Origin: an uncultured Spartobacteria bacterium | Lineage (GTDB): Bacteria; Verrucomicrobiota; Verrucomicrobiia; Chthoniobacterales; UBA6821 | NCBI GenBank assembly: GCA_903868795.1 | Contig: CAIPWR010000095.1 | Span: 1-46,923 of the forward strand | Direction of reading: 5' to 3' | DNA length: 46,923 bases | In this document: one piece after another, positions 13,665 to 29,797 of the stretch | Position numbering within the stretch: the stretch's first letter is position 1 | How the letters are laid out: each line of letters starts with the position of its first letter | Notes under the pieces: model-generated | Databases searched by the model: none | Seen by the model: only the letters and a program-made list of their open reading frames with translations | What the model was told of the DNA's origin: nothing | Translations under genes and position numbers: made by a program

Positions 13665-14108
13665 ATGAAGATCACCTCCCTATTCTCGTTGATTCCTGCC
13701 GTTGCCCTGCTCAGTGCTTGCACCACCGAAGTCGGCCCCAATGGCCAACCCCGTCAAGTCATGACTCCGACGGGAGCCGCCGTCGTTCAGGGATTGTCTG
13801 CCGCCGCCATCGGTGCAGGAACCGGTGCCCTCATGCGTGGCGTGAACCCCGTCGCTGCCGGAGCCATCTCCGCAGGAGCGGGCAGTATCGGCTCACAGGC
13901 GATCAATGCTTTCATTCCCAAATCCAGCGGTTCCCAGTCCGGTCAGCAACAGACCAATCAGCAGCTCTTTGTCCGCTCGGGTGACAGCTTTGTTCCTGCC
14001 AAGATCAGCTACATTCAGCAGCCTGATGGCAGCTATGCCCCTTCCTATCCGAGGGGTAAGCAGCTCTTCCGCCAGCTCCAGAATGGCTCCTTCGCTCCGG
14101 TTAACTAG
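13665..14108 (+). CDS. Small lipoprotein with glycine-zipper segment
   Basis: A 147-residue protein with a lipoprotein signal peptide: MKIT, a hydrophobic stretch and lipobox LLSAC (acylated Cys19). Residues about 38-80 are rich in Gly and Ala (GAAVVQGLSAAAIGAGTGAL, then AAGAISAGAGSIGSQ) and resemble glycine-zipper segments of outer-membrane lipoproteins. The rest is Gln/Ser-rich and polar. Function unknown; I see no enzyme motif. Its TAG stop (14106-14108) is part of the CTAG that borders transposon-like repeat A, so the element was inserted exactly at the end of this gene and may have reset its 3' end. A promoter with a very short leader lies directly upstream. Confidence 0.75.
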   Translation: MKITSLFSLIPAVALLSACTTEVGPNGQPRQVMTPTGAAVVQGLSAAAIGAGTGALMRGVNPVAAGAISAGAGSIGSQAINAFIPKSSGSQSGQQQTNQQLFVRSGDSFVPAKISYIQQPDGSYAPSYPRGKQLFRQLQNGSFAPVN

Positions 14109-14382
14109 GGAAGCGCTGATTAAATCGCATTGAGGCCGTTGAGGGAAGAATGGGCCGCGGGCAAGGCGGCTTGGCACGAGCATCCCCGCAGTGGGCTGTA
14201 AGTGCCAAGCCAACACAGCCCCCGGCCTGTTATTTCCGCAACCCTATGGGCTGAAGCCAGTTGTCGATTTTTGTGGCGTTACTCGCTCGGGCGAGACCGC
14301 TGCGGGTATCGCCCAGCGCTCGCGCCTTCAAAAATCAGCAACTGCACTTCAGCGGCCATCATGGGATTTAATCAGCGCTTCC
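14109..14382. mobile_element. MITE-like repeat, family A copy 1
   Basis: A 274-bp element with perfect 18-bp terminal inverted repeats (GGAAGCGCTGATTAAATC inward from each end), imperfectly extended to about 35 bp. It is bordered by CTAG on the left and CTAA on the right. An inner inverted repeat (GCTGAAG...CAGTTG...GATTTTTG and its complement) makes the whole element foldable. It codes for no protein. Copy 2 at 29516-29745 is about 95% identical by eye over 230 bp. Copy 1 has an extra 44 bp (about 14166-14209) that is itself a hairpin with 10-bp arms GGCTTGGCAC/GTGCCAAGCC. The TIR start and 4-bp YTAR target recall IS5-group elements. It lies exactly between two convergent TAG stops. Confidence 0.85.
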
Positions 14383-16407
14383 CTAAGGATTTTTTAACGC
14401 TGTCTCCGGGAGTTTGATTCCAAGCAACCGGAGGCTGTTCAGCACCACAAGAAGGGTGCTCCCCTCATGGGCTGCGACTCCGAGGGTGAGAGGCACCGGG
14501 TAGATGAAAGCTGCGCAGACCATCACAAGGACGGTGCCGAGGGCGACGAAGATATTCTGAGTGATGATACCCTTCGCCTGAACGCTGAGAAGGCGGGCGA
14601 GGAGAAAGTTCTCGAGGCGGTCATTCATCAGAACCACTTCGGCCTGCTCGAGGGCGGCGTCGGAGCCGCGGGCGCCCATGGCCACGCCGACATCAGCCGC
14701 AGCAATGCAGGGGGCGTCATTGACTCCATCACCGATCATTGCGACGCGGACTTTGCCTCCCTCCTTCAGATGCTCAATCGCCTCCACTTTCTTGTCGGGT
14801 GAAAGTTCGCATAGGATCTCCCTGATGCCAACCTTCGCTCCGATTAACTCGGCAGCATCCCGGTGATCCCCTGTCAGCATCACGGTACGGATTCCCTGTT
14901 CATGAAGGGCCGTTAGAGTGAGAAGGGATTCTGGTCTGATCTCATCGGTAAAAACCATTCTCCCCAAGAGGGTCTCTCCGGCTACCCAGACGACGGCACC
15001 GGCAGTTTTACCTGCTGGTGGCAGTTCTCTATTGGCAAAGCGGTCAAGAGCTAGGACAAGTTTGCGGCTCCCCATGACAAAAGTCTCACCACCGATCTGG
15101 GCACGTACGCCCTTGCCAAGGATCGTCTCGAAGTTGGCGGCCTCCATGGCGGGGGTGCCCCATGTGGCCGCGATTTTGCGTATGGCTCGTGAGAGCGGAT
15201 GCTCGGAAAGCCGCGCCAGAGAATGGGCAACCTGACGGAAGTGATCTTCATTTCCCTCAAAGAGATCGACCTCGGCAAGTGTCAGGTTTCCTGAGGTCAG
15301 GGTTCCTGTCTTGTCGAGGGCGACGACGCCGACATTGGCTAGGGTTTCGATGGCGGCCCCGCCACGGTAAAGGATGCCGCGGCGAGCCCCGCTAGCGATG
15401 GCGGAGAGGATCGCCGAGGGAACGGAGAGGACGAGGGCGCAGGGAGAGGCGACCACCAGCAGGGTCATCGTGCGGTAGAAGGCACTGGCTGTGTCGTCGC
15501 GGGACTCGAAGGGGGAAAGTCCAAGGATCAACCACCAGACAAAAAACATGATGGTGCAGAGGGAGAGGATGACCCAGGTATAGCCGGTGCCGAACTTGTC
15601 GGTGAAGCGCTGGGAGGGGGCCTTGAGGTTCTGGGCATTCTGGATAAGGCGGATGATCTTTTGCAGGGAGCTTTCGCTTGCAGGGCGGAGCACGCGGCCT
15701 TCGAGGACTCCCCAGAGATTGATGGTTCCGGAGAGGGCTGTGTCGCCGGGACGCTTTGCCACGGGGATTGCTTCGCCGGTCATGTTCGATTCATCACAGG
15801 CGCTCTCGCCCTTGATCACCTCGATATCGGCGGGAATTTGTTTCCCGGTGGTGACAAGAACGATCATTCCCGGGAGGAGTTGCCCGACAGGAAGCTGTTC
15901 CTCAAGGCCTTCCTTCAGAACCCGTGCCGTCTTTGGTGCACCTCGGAAAAGGGCGTCGATCGCCTTCTTGGTGCGGCCCATGGCGAAGTGCTCCATGGCG
16001 CCGGATGCCGAGAAGAGAAACAGGAGAAGCGCGCCTTCGCGCCAAGCCCCGATGATTCCTGCGCCTACCGCCACGGCGAGCATGAGAAAGTGGACGTCGA
16101 GTTGTCCCTTCCTAAGGCGTTCCCAGGCATCTCCCGCCGCATCCCATCCGCCGCAAACATAAGCCAGCATGTAAAAAACTGTGGCCGCGCCGCGCAGTTG
16201 AAAGAGCAGTTCCAAGGCAAGTCCCAGAGTACCGAAGAAAAGGCATCCCGCTGCCAGGATCGCCATGAAACGCCATTCCTCGTGATCTTCCGGACTTCCG
16301 AACACGTCATGCTCGCGTGGGGCGTATTTGGGGAGGCAGGAGGAGCAGAAGCTTCCTAGTCTGGTGAATAGGGAGGTGCGCTTCGAAACGGATGACATGA
16401 CACGCAC
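14383..16407 (-). CDS. P1B-4-type heavy-metal P-type ATPase
   Basis: An ATP-driven metal exporter of the inner membrane (674 residues). Membrane metal site SPCALVLS replaces the CPC of copper pumps, and the last helix pair contains HEGSTLLVVLNSLRLL; SPC plus HEGS/HEGG marks the P1B-4 group (Co, Zn, Fe or Cd). Actuator loop TGEAIP, phosphorylation site DKTGTLT, nucleotide-domain SEHPLSRA and hinge GDGVNDAP are complete. There is no N-terminal HMA domain; instead a short leader with FCSSC and a His pair may handle metal. An alternative ATG is at 16398. The TAG stop lies in the CTAA border of repeat A. It is divergent from rfaE2. Confidence 0.92.
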   Translation of the reverse strand: MRVMSSVSKRTSLFTRLGSFCSSCLPKYAPREHDVFGSPEDHEEWRFMAILAAGCLFFGTLGLALELLFQLRGAATVFYMLAYVCGGWDAAGDAWERLRKGQLDVHFLMLAVAVGAGIIGAWREGALLLFLFSASGAMEHFAMGRTKKAIDALFRGAPKTARVLKEGLEEQLPVGQLLPGMIVLVTTGKQIPADIEVIKGESACDESNMTGEAIPVAKRPGDTALSGTINLWGVLEGRVLRPASESSLQKIIRLIQNAQNLKAPSQRFTDKFGTGYTWVILSLCTIMFFVWWLILGLSPFESRDDTASAFYRTMTLLVVASPCALVLSVPSAILSAIASGARRGILYRGGAAIETLANVGVVALDKTGTLTSGNLTLAEVDLFEGNEDHFRQVAHSLARLSEHPLSRAIRKIAATWGTPAMEAANFETILGKGVRAQIGGETFVMGSRKLVLALDRFANRELPPAGKTAGAVVWVAGETLLGRMVFTDEIRPESLLTLTALHEQGIRTVMLTGDHRDAAELIGAKVGIREILCELSPDKKVEAIEHLKEGGKVRVAMIGDGVNDAPCIAAADVGVAMGARGSDAALEQAEVVLMNDRLENFLLARLLSVQAKGIITQNIFVALGTVLVMVCAAFIYPVPLTLGVAAHEGSTLLVVLNSLRLLGIKLPETALKNP

Positions 16408-17495: not shown

Positions 17496-18608
17496 TTAGA
17501 CGGAAACACGCATCGGCATGAGCACGTAGAGGAAGCGCTGTGCCGAATTGATCTTGATGACACCCGGGCTCATCTCGTCGATCAGCTCAAGGGCGATGGT
17601 GTCGTCCGAGAGATTGCGAAGCGGATCAATGACGAACTCGGGATTGAAGGCGATCGAGAGATCGCGCCCCTTGTAGGCGACGGCAAGAGACTCTTTGGCT
17701 TCTCCAACCTCAGGGGTGTTGGAGGTGATATCGAGATTGTTTTTGGTGAAGTTGAGGCGAACGGAGCCGCTCTTGTCACTGCTGAGGAGGGCCACACGGC
17801 GAACCGACTGGAGCAAGGTTTCGCGCTCGAGGGAGACGCGTTCCTTGGCCTCACCTGGAATCACCTGACGGTAGTTTGGATAGGTTCCGTCGACGAGTTT
17901 GGTTGCCAGCACTGTAGTCCCGAGATCAAAGGCGACGAGGTTGTCCCCGATATGGAGGCGGACATCCTTGTCATCGACAAGCAAGCGCTGGAGTTCTCCG
18001 ATTGCCTTGGTAGGAACGATGAAGTCACGCTCGTGACCGGCGGGATACTTGATTTCGCCAAGCTCCGCATCGCAGAGCGCAAGGCGCCGGCCATCGGTGG
18101 CGACAAGAGTCAGGCGGCCATCGCGGAAAGAAAAGAGGATGCCGTTGAGAACATAGCGGGTTTCGTCGAGGGAGATGGCGTAGGAGGTCTTCTTGAGGCC
18201 CTCCTTGAGATCACCCTGTTTCATGGAGAAGCCGCGTGATTCCTCCAGTGATGGGAAAGCTGGGTATTCCTCCTTGGAGAGACCAAAGACCTTGAAGAAG
18301 CTCGCTCCGCTGCGGATGGAGGTAATGTTGCGGGAATCAGTTTCGAGCTCGATCTCCTCAGCCGGCAGTTCCCGGATGATTGAGAGCAGACGCTTGGCAG
18401 GGAGTGTGGTCGACCCAGCCTTCTCAATGGAGGCAGGGGTCTCTGTACGGACACTGACATCCAGATCCGTAGCCGTGAGCTGAAGACCGGTCTCGGTCGT
18501 TTCGAGCAACACGTTGGAGAGAACGGGCAACGTAACCTTGTTGGAGACGATGTTCTGAATGCGCTGGAGTCCGTCGAGAAGGGCTTGCTTGGTGACCGTT
18601 AGTTTCAT
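17496..18608 (-). CDS. dnaN: DNA polymerase III sliding clamp (beta subunit)
   Basis: The ring-shaped processivity factor of the replicative polymerase (370 residues, three repeated clamp domains). The opening MKLTVTKQALLDGLQRIQNIVS and the ending LMPMRVSV (compare MPMRL in E. coli) are diagnostic, and FNPEFVIDPLRNL is a typical domain III segment. It is the second gene after dnaA, the classical order, with 113 bp between. That gap has a palindrome set between two CTAAGGG repeats (18634-18667). No ribosome-binding site is clear at the ATG. Confidence 0.97.
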   Translation of the reverse strand: MKLTVTKQALLDGLQRIQNIVSNKVTLPVLSNVLLETTETGLQLTATDLDVSVRTETPASIEKAGSTTLPAKRLLSIIRELPAEEIELETDSRNITSIRSGASFFKVFGLSKEEYPAFPSLEESRGFSMKQGDLKEGLKKTSYAISLDETRYVLNGILFSFRDGRLTLVATDGRRLALCDAELGEIKYPAGHERDFIVPTKAIGELQRLLVDDKDVRLHIGDNLVAFDLGTTVLATKLVDGTYPNYRQVIPGEAKERVSLERETLLQSVRRVALLSSDKSGSVRLNFTKNNLDITSNTPEVGEAKESLAVAYKGRDLSIAFNPEFVIDPLRNLSDDTIALELIDEMSPGVIKINSAQRFLYVLMPMRVSV

Positions 18609-18633
18609 GGATAAAGTGATGGGTGATGGGCCA

Positions 18634-18667
18634 CTAAGGGCAAACTATGTGCATAGTTTCCTAAGGG
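18634..18667. promoter_or_regulatory. Palindrome bracketed by direct repeats upstream of dnaN
   Basis: Reads CTAAGGG, c, AAACTATG-TG-CATAGTTT, c, CTAAGGG. The palindrome is perfect over 8-bp arms and the flanking 7-bp repeats are placed symmetrically. It lies 25 bp upstream of the dnaN start and could be an operator for a dimeric regulator. No DnaA box consensus is present here. Confidence 0.45.
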
Positions 18668-18721
18668 GGCGCCTGTCAAAGCGATTCTCTGAAGAAGAGA
18701 GCGAATAATACCCGGAGACCA

Positions 18722-20146
18722 CTACCGCTGGAGCTGCTGGTCCAGGAGACGTACCAGATGTCGGGTCTTGGAGTCTTTCTCCATCTGGGCCTTTACGAGC
18801 TTGCAGGCGTGAATAACAGTGCCGTGATCCTTGCCTCCAAAGGCGCCTCCGATCTCCACTAATGTGGAGGGGGTCATTTCTCTGGCCAGGTACATGGCGA
18901 CCTGACGTGGGTAGGCGATGGAGGCCGTCCGCTTCTTGCTGGTCATGTCGGCCAGGCGGATATCGAAGTGTTCCGCGACCTTCTTCTGAATCTGGTCAAT
19001 CGTCACTGCCTTGCGGGCCTGCTCTTGAAGAACATCGCGTAGGAGGTGCTCCAGGGCGTCGGTGGTGAGTGATTGACCGCTGAGTGATTTGTAAGCGGCG
19101 ACGCGCATCAGCGCACCCTCGAGACGGCGGATGTCGCTACGGATCTTGTCTGCAAGGAATTCCAGGACCCAATGCTCGATCTCAATGTGCATCCGGGAAG
19201 CCTTGCCCTGAAGAATCGCAATGCGGGTCTCCATGTCAGGTGGCTGGATCTCGGCCGTCATTCCCCACTCGAAACGGGAGACAAGGCGCTGCTCCAAGTT
19301 GGCGATCTCGCTGGCCGGCCTGTCGCTGGAGAGAATGATCTGCTTATGGCCGTCGTGAAGCGCGCCGAAGGTGTGGAAAAACTCCTCCTGAGAGCGCTCT
19401 TTTCCGGCAAAGAACTGGATATCATCGATCATCAGGATGTCGGCCTGACGATAGCGCTTGCGGAAGGCCACCAGAGCATTGTTCTGGATCGCGTCGATGA
19501 ACTCGTTGGTGAACTGCTCACTGCGAAGGTAAACGACGCGGGCATTCTTTTTCACGGAGAGAATGTGGTGACCGATCGACTGGAGAAGATGGGTTTTTCC
19601 GAGACCGCTCCCACCATAGATGAAGAGTGGATTATAGGTTCGGGCAGGTGCGTTGGCAACGGCCTGCGAGGCAGCGTGTGCGAACTGATTGTTCGCCCCG
19701 ACGATGAAGCTGCCGAAGGTGTAGGAGGGATTCATGCCTGCAGCCGCGGGTGCATTGGATGAAAGACGCTGAGTAGTTACCGCAGAGGAGGGCTCGGTAA
19801 CCGCGGGGGCTTCCTTTTCGTGGGTTGGTTCCGATATGACATGCCCGGACTCCTGGGCGCATTCCAGTCGGAGTTCCCTTGGGCCGCCATGCACTTCCTC
19901 CAGCGCGGAGGAGAGGAGACTGGAGTAATTACTCTCGATGAAAAACTGATGGATGGGATTAGGGACTCCGAGTGTCACGGAATCCGCCGATGACGCGATG
20001 ACCGAGACATTGCTGAACCAACGGTCGAAGCTGTCAGCGCTCACCCGACTACGGATGACGTTGGAAAGACTCTCCCAGAGCTTGGCGAGGGGAGGCATCG
20101 TCGGATGGAGTGATTGCTCCGAGGTGTTGGCTAAAGGGTCGTTCAA
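18722..20146 (-). CDS. dnaA: Chromosomal replication initiator DnaA
   Basis: The AAA+ initiator that melts the origin. Domain I (KLWESLSNVIRSRVSADSFDRWFS), a Pro/Ala-rich linker (about 100-140), then domain III with Walker A GGSGLGKTH (178-186), Walker B LMIDD (238-242) and the sensor region. Domain IV carries the DnaA-box helix-turn-helix signature GKDHGTVIHACKLV. The frame begins with TTG at 20146; an ATG at 20098 (residue 17) also gives a normal domain I and may be the true start. dnaN follows on the same strand. I found no cluster of TTATCCACA-like boxes next to the gene, so the origin is not shown to be here. A terminator separates it from the symporter upstream. Confidence 0.96.
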   Translation of the reverse strand: MNDPLANTSEQSLHPTMPPLAKLWESLSNVIRSRVSADSFDRWFSNVSVIASSADSVTLGVPNPIHQFFIESNYSSLLSSALEEVHGGPRELRLECAQESGHVISEPTHEKEAPAVTEPSSAVTTQRLSSNAPAAAGMNPSYTFGSFIVGANNQFAHAASQAVANAPARTYNPLFIYGGSGLGKTHLLQSIGHHILSVKKNARVVYLRSEQFTNEFIDAIQNNALVAFRKRYRQADILMIDDIQFFAGKERSQEEFFHTFGALHDGHKQIILSSDRPASEIANLEQRLVSRFEWGMTAEIQPPDMETRIAILQGKASRMHIEIEHWVLEFLADKIRSDIRRLEGALMRVAAYKSLSGQSLTTDALEHLLRDVLQEQARKAVTIDQIQKKVAEHFDIRLADMTSKKRTASIAYPRQVAMYLAREMTPSTLVEIGGAFGGKDHGTVIHACKLVKAQMEKDSKTRHLVRLLDQQLQR

Positions 20147-29504: not shown

Positions 29505-29515
29505 GCCAAGCTTAG

Positions 29516-29745
29516 GGAAGCGCTGATTAAATCGCATAAAGGCCGTTGCGGGAAGAATGGGCCGCGGGCAAGCCAACACAGCCCTCGGCCCGTTATCTCC
29601 GCAACCCTATGGGCTGAAGCCAGTTGTCGATTTTCGTGGCGTTGCTCGCTAGGGCGAGACCGCTGCGGGTATCGCCCAGCACTCGCGCCTTCAAAAATCA
29701 GCAACTGATCTTCAGCGGCCATCATGGGATTTAATCAGCGCTTCC
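29516..29745. mobile_element. MITE-like repeat, family A copy 2
   Basis: A 230-bp copy of the element at 14109-14382, in the same orientation. The 18-bp terminal inverted repeats GGAAGCGCTGATTAAATC are perfect. It is bordered on both sides by TTAG (29512-29515 and 29746-29749), a clean 4-bp target-site duplication. Relative to copy 1 it lacks the 44-bp hairpin insert and has about a dozen substitutions by eye. It lies between rlpA and the TonB receptor gene and codes for nothing. Confidence 0.88.
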
Positions 29746-29797
29746 TTAGGAAAATCTTTTCATCGAATGTTCGTAGGAAAAACAGGATCAGATTGAC

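Follow-up and report, generated by a model that had tools for sequence, protein, structure and literature searches.

The window, i.e. the whole stretch of 46,923 nucleotides analysed here, carries two closely related non-coding repeats, which raise the question of what moves them and whether their interior has a meaning of its own. MITEs are usually seen as degenerate IS elements whose interior carries no meaning. In the family described below this picture is reversed: conservation across a phylum concerns the middle, and it is the ends that vary. The parts of the two window copies are as follows:

14105–14108, plus strand: left target CTAG of copy 2, containing the TAG stop codon of ORF 13665–14108
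14109–14382, plus strand: MITE copy 2, full length, 274 bp, fold z = -13.4
14109–14126, plus strand: left terminal inverted repeat of copy 2 (18-mer search)
14149–14231, plus strand: arm A of copy 2
14239–14253, plus strand: central mini-hairpin CCC-N3-GGG of copy 2, conserved phylum-wide
14259–14343, minus strand: arm B of copy 2, an inverted relative of arm A
14365–14382, minus strand: right terminal inverted repeat of copy 2 (18-mer search)
14383–14386, plus strand: right flank CTAA of copy 2, in which CTA is the TAG stop of the minus-strand ORF 14383–16407
29512–29515, plus strand: left target duplication TTAG of copy 1
29516–29745, plus strand: MITE copy 1, 230 bp, without 44 bp of arm A; the junction is the CAAG at 29569–29572
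29516–29533, plus strand: left terminal inverted repeat of copy 1 (18-mer search)
29602–29616, plus strand: central mini-hairpin CCC-N3-GGG of copy 1 (from the alignment)
29622–29706, minus strand: arm B of copy 1, with the motif AAGGCG..CAACGC on the minus strand
29728–29745, minus strand: right terminal inverted repeat of copy 1 (18-mer search)
29746–29749, plus strand: right target duplication TTAG of copy 1

The initial annotation described copy 1 as bounded by perfect 18-bp terminal inverted repeats and by TTAG on either side, and both features are confirmed. The 18-bp ends (GGAAGCGCTGATTAAATC) are perfect in both copies, and a related 18-mer with up to three mismatches is found at only four sites, namely the ends of the two copies (0.01 expected). 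The identity to the second copy, put at about 95%, was measured at 95% over the shared parts. As to the absence of a transposase inside or near the element, neither copy contains a transposase ORF, and a search of the contig for the DDE_Tnp_1 and DUF772 transposase domains detected none. The 44-bp loss of copy 1, located between two CAAG words, removes most of one hairpin and sets this copy apart from every other one in the genome. Copy 2 lies between two convergent ORFs, to both of which the flanking CTAG and CTAA give stop codons; before the insertion, both genes apparently overlapped in a single CTAG at this site.

Beyond the window, the whole-genome count proposed in the initial annotation yields at least nine copies, eight recovered by DNA search and the ninth, on contig C85, with a covariance model for which a capped number of candidates was scored. 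Recent movement had been suggested from the high identity; across the genome copies are 77–98% identical, and movement has therefore not all been recent. Identical flanking 4-mers are present in 34 of the 65 home-genus copies with both flanks, and 31 of the 34 are YTAR (CTAA 16, CTAG 7, TTAG 6, TTAA 2), so that an exact YTAR duplication is present in 31 of 65. Since 22 of these are non-palindromic (CTAA or TTAG), the duplication length is fixed at four bases. The suggested comparison with empty sites was made at sites other than those of the window copies. Flanks joined with one 4-mer align gaplessly over 80 columns to an unoccupied site in a relative of another species (L221) and over 96 columns to a paralogous repeat (L225; likewise L051, in this genome). 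At an insertion site common to two species, the element measures 274 bp in one (L080 1501–1774, G012) and 307 bp in the other (L106 512–818, G003); a 33-bp hairpin module has therefore been gained or lost in place after insertion.

The family thus shows the features of bacterial MITEs (reviewed in PMC10969869): (i) terminal inverted repeats; (ii) target duplication; (iii) dispersed copies; (iv) filled and empty sites; (v) a length of about 121–430 bp, i.e. under 500 bp, without an internal transposase. Home-genus elements are mostly intergenic, and their enrichment between convergent genes is not above that of neighbours. About a fifth of the 3' ends of genes next to these elements (~10/49) terminate exactly in the duplicated YTAR, which supplies the TAG or TAA stop. 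In the MAG CANKJN01 more than 30 contigs carry the end pattern, and more than 40 end matches are present in G025; as many of these copies lie at contig ends, the copy bursts probably fragment both assemblies.

A candidate for the mobilising enzyme is provided by the sister species G003, in which an intact 1,233-bp IS with the same ends is flanked by TTAA on both sides (L240 1336–2568). Its transposase of 325 aa (L240 1411–2388) belongs to the IS5 family (NCBIfam NF033581, 342.6 bits vs a cut-off of 140). In this genome an IS with the same ends, flanked by CTAA on both sides, is located on contig C68 (L053 ~994–2004), and its transposase gene is broken, with about 86 bp missing. The search for a full-length IS with the ends of the MITE, proposed in the initial annotation, has thus produced an intact element in the sister species and a truncated one here. 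The ends of IS5 and MITE agree in 16–18 of 20 nt, compared with a shuffle maximum of 15. Movement by an IS5-like enzyme encoded elsewhere in the genome, as originally proposed, is supported in its ends, its YTAR targets and its IS5 partner, but the only such IS assembled here is broken, and for this reason the active enzyme is deduced from the sister species. The element is a non-coding MITE with IS5-type ends and target sites, and judging from these sequences it would be mobilised in trans by an IS5-family transposase. The window element is distinct from the IS630 type, since the home genus has IS5 ends and exact, non-palindromic duplications of 4 bp. A MITE with an IS5 partner is in itself of a known kind.

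The interior of the element is less ordinary. In the predicted fold of the 274-nt copy the terminal repeats pair into a closing stem, and arms A and B stand on either side of a small central hairpin (-165.4 kcal/mol, z = -13.4; z = -11.5 as DNA). Two-sided changes are found in 23 of 93 pairs within the home genus and in 82 of 93 in a class-wide alignment, the covariation score of the latter being 0.702 vs 0.172 for shuffled alignments and 0.08–0.14 for slid partners. In 15 further elements, all but one of them outside model building and mostly from other classes or families, 89 of the 93 pairs have two-sided changes and the score is 0.738 vs 0.196 shuffled; pairing counts are inflated in alignments A4 and A5, which were fitted to the structure, and some elements are present on both strands. 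Because of this fitting, homology was also assessed without structure, and a sequence-only profile recovers all 15 elements (L301 and L306 at E ~1e-32). Conserved bases cluster in the AGGC and AACGC of the arm feet and in the CCC-N3-GGG of the centre. The interpretation given in the initial annotation is supported for the element itself, but it missed an interior conserved far beyond the element's own ends. No Rfam 15 family matches above its gathering score, and plasmids, phages and IMG/VR contain no match to the element patterns.

The covariance model matches 49 of 213 genomes of the order, 47 of 286 genomes and 33 of 137 genera of the class, and 51 of 388 genomes of the phylum Verrucomicrobiota, several of them outside the class; these counts are lower bounds, few candidates having been scored per genome. 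The element length is near 264–280 bp in most lineages, and from one lineage to another the terminal repeats are completely different. The flanks of f5 and f9 elements have the form YTAG...CTAR, and their outer bases are unequal; for this pattern a TA duplication within a YTAR target is a better explanation than a duplication of 4 bp. The ends of L301 and L306, which belong to another class (genomes G556 and G603), match those of the IS630 element L252 from a different genome, G112, at 21–25 of 27 nt, whereas the next best element reaches 16 and the shuffle maximum is 18. The transposase of L252 is of the IS630 family, with a reading frame split in two, and the flanks of L301 and L306 fit a TA duplication. 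The module therefore sits on the ends of two transposase families, IS5 and IS630. As a module of near-constant size is found on unrelated ends, these sequences suggest that it has exchanged transposon ends during its history.

Other partners were sought for the remaining ends. Among IS630 candidates (PF13358) in 12 genomes of the order, a clean terminal-repeat pair was obtained in G112 only, and this IS630 was rejected as a local partner: its ends match the elements of another class, not those of G112. For the AGAGCCTGTCTGAAAA ends in G263 and G313 no partner IS was found, only MITEs, bare end palindromes of ~51 bp and solo ends. In G025 more than 40 element ends of the TGTACCGTCTCC type include no pair at IS distance; the partner has possibly been lost in assembly. 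Two of the coreless two-end palindromes of G263 (C42:28853–28903 and C51:18444–18494) stand beside full 275-bp elements, a hint that the core is dispensable for mobility.

The construction of the core can be read from its parts. Solo-arm elements of ~160–169 bp exist, and in the sequence-only profile the solo arm matches arm A and arm B on opposite strands, so that the two arms are inverted (head-to-head) relatives. A preference of the whole element for one RNA strand was dismissed, being seen in 25 of 26 cases in the home genus and in only 17 of 52 elsewhere; the strands were therefore compared arm by arm. Counting of GU/AC changes as a strand test was abandoned as biased on model-fitted alignments. 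When the arms are folded separately, the plus strand gives the more stable structure for arm A in 53 of 74 elements, and the minus strand does so for arm B in 44 of 74 (40 of 60 without the home genus), a modest preference among related copies, which the choice of orientation may bias. In terms of predicted stability, it agrees with selection that acts on a folded single strand in the orientation of the motif.

Taken as a whole, the repeats are probably IS5-type MITEs, mobilised in trans, that carry an older structured module which has changed ends. According to this explanation, an IS5-family transposase would recognise the ends of ~18 bp, insert at YTAR and duplicate 4 bp. The MITE would be the carrier of an older module with two head-to-head arms, foot motifs AAGGC..AACGC and a central CCC-N3-GGG hairpin, all enclosed in one long stem that the terminal repeats form. 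The module would have moved between ends, of IS5 type in the home genus and of IS630 type in at least one other class. Its arms are probably under selection in the form of folded single strands, the simplest case being RNA in read-through transcripts, and their opposite orientations would provide one sense arm whichever strand is read. On sequence grounds a role of the folded arms in transcripts is plausible. The broader proposal of a phylum-wide selfish module (RNA or ssDNA), persisting across unrelated DDE ends and selected as a folded strand with one functional arm per strand, is tentative and somewhat short of an even chance.

An ordinary MITE, in which pairing is maintained by mutation through template switching at imperfect palindromes and the motifs are simply inherited, would account for terminal repeats that change completely and stay near-perfectly complementary (helix 1, 94.7% paired), as well as for the palindromic modules gained within arms. 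It is nevertheless considered unlikely, because unpaired bases at the arm feet and the centre are kept across classes, wobbles stay uncorrected (e.g. U-G at A2 columns 31:281 in 26 of 26) and the total length is held at 264–280 bp in most lineages. The exchange of ends is likewise open to another explanation, in which a single DDE transposase lineage and its MITEs shifted their ends gradually and the IS630 likeness is incidental. Most ends do share a GC-rich tip followed by an A/T-rich stretch near positions 12–17, and the targets have a TA/YTAR-like character in common, but the IS5 and IS630 transposases are distinct families, and a 4-bp YTAR duplication in one contrasts with the TA duplication that better suits the flanks of the other; gradual change is therefore doubtful. 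The inverted hairpin pair and the mostly intergenic position also recall a REP/BIME-like element whose mobility would depend on a RAYT (HUH tyrosine transposase), an origin made highly improbable by the exact 4-bp duplications and the perfect terminal repeats common to a DDE transposon, by an element length about ten times that of a REP, and by alignments in which no GTAG-tagged foot was seen.

Several known systems resemble the carrier and its module in part. The IS5 duplication motif is YTAR (PMC10359306), and IS5-family MITEs are, like the elements described here, short, non-coding and dispersed, with terminal repeats shared with IS5, YTAR duplications and a stable transcript fold; here, however, the interior is homologous across the phylum and occurs elsewhere on unrelated ends. 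In the same way, L301 and L306 resemble IS630-type MITEs in ends that match an IS630 element and flanks that fit a TA duplication, and differ in that their interior is the module of the IS5-type elements. ERIC, NEMIS, YPAl and bcr1 have been named as MITEs (PMC3733652). They are gene-adjacent, as here, and their transcripts reportedly fold and influence mRNA stability. The present elements differ in having two inverted related arms with a central hairpin, as predicted from sequence, and a range that is phylum-wide. REPINs and BIMEs are abundant, non-autonomous inverted hairpin pairs (PMC3733652, PMC3116915), and GTAG REPs are numerous in the verrucomicrobium O. terrae (PMC3733652). The formation of a larger hairpin by an inverted pair, the non-autonomy and the abundance are shared with the present elements, whereas DDE-type ends and target duplications, with no GTAG tag seen, are not.

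No report of a phylum-conserved non-coding core on unrelated ends was found in the open-licence papers searched or in Rfam. The family provides a covariation-supported structure missing from Rfam 15, and opens the questions of what a non-coding passenger contributes, whether it benefits the carrier or makes the host tolerate it, and by which route ends are exchanged.

Some further observations concern individual loci. The arms of L212 3640–4069 and 6125–6554, L229 642–990 and L110 572–931 contain inserted series of tiny hairpins, whose loops on one strand are in many cases GGGA (GNRA-type). An element of 199 bp (L208 2921–3119) shares the ends of the MITE, is flanked by CTAA at either side and lies on a contig labelled Armatimonadetes, representing either a misbinned contig or a transfer between phyla. 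Within the window, the adjacent ORFs at 17496–20146 are putative dnaN and dnaA, as read by eye from the translations.
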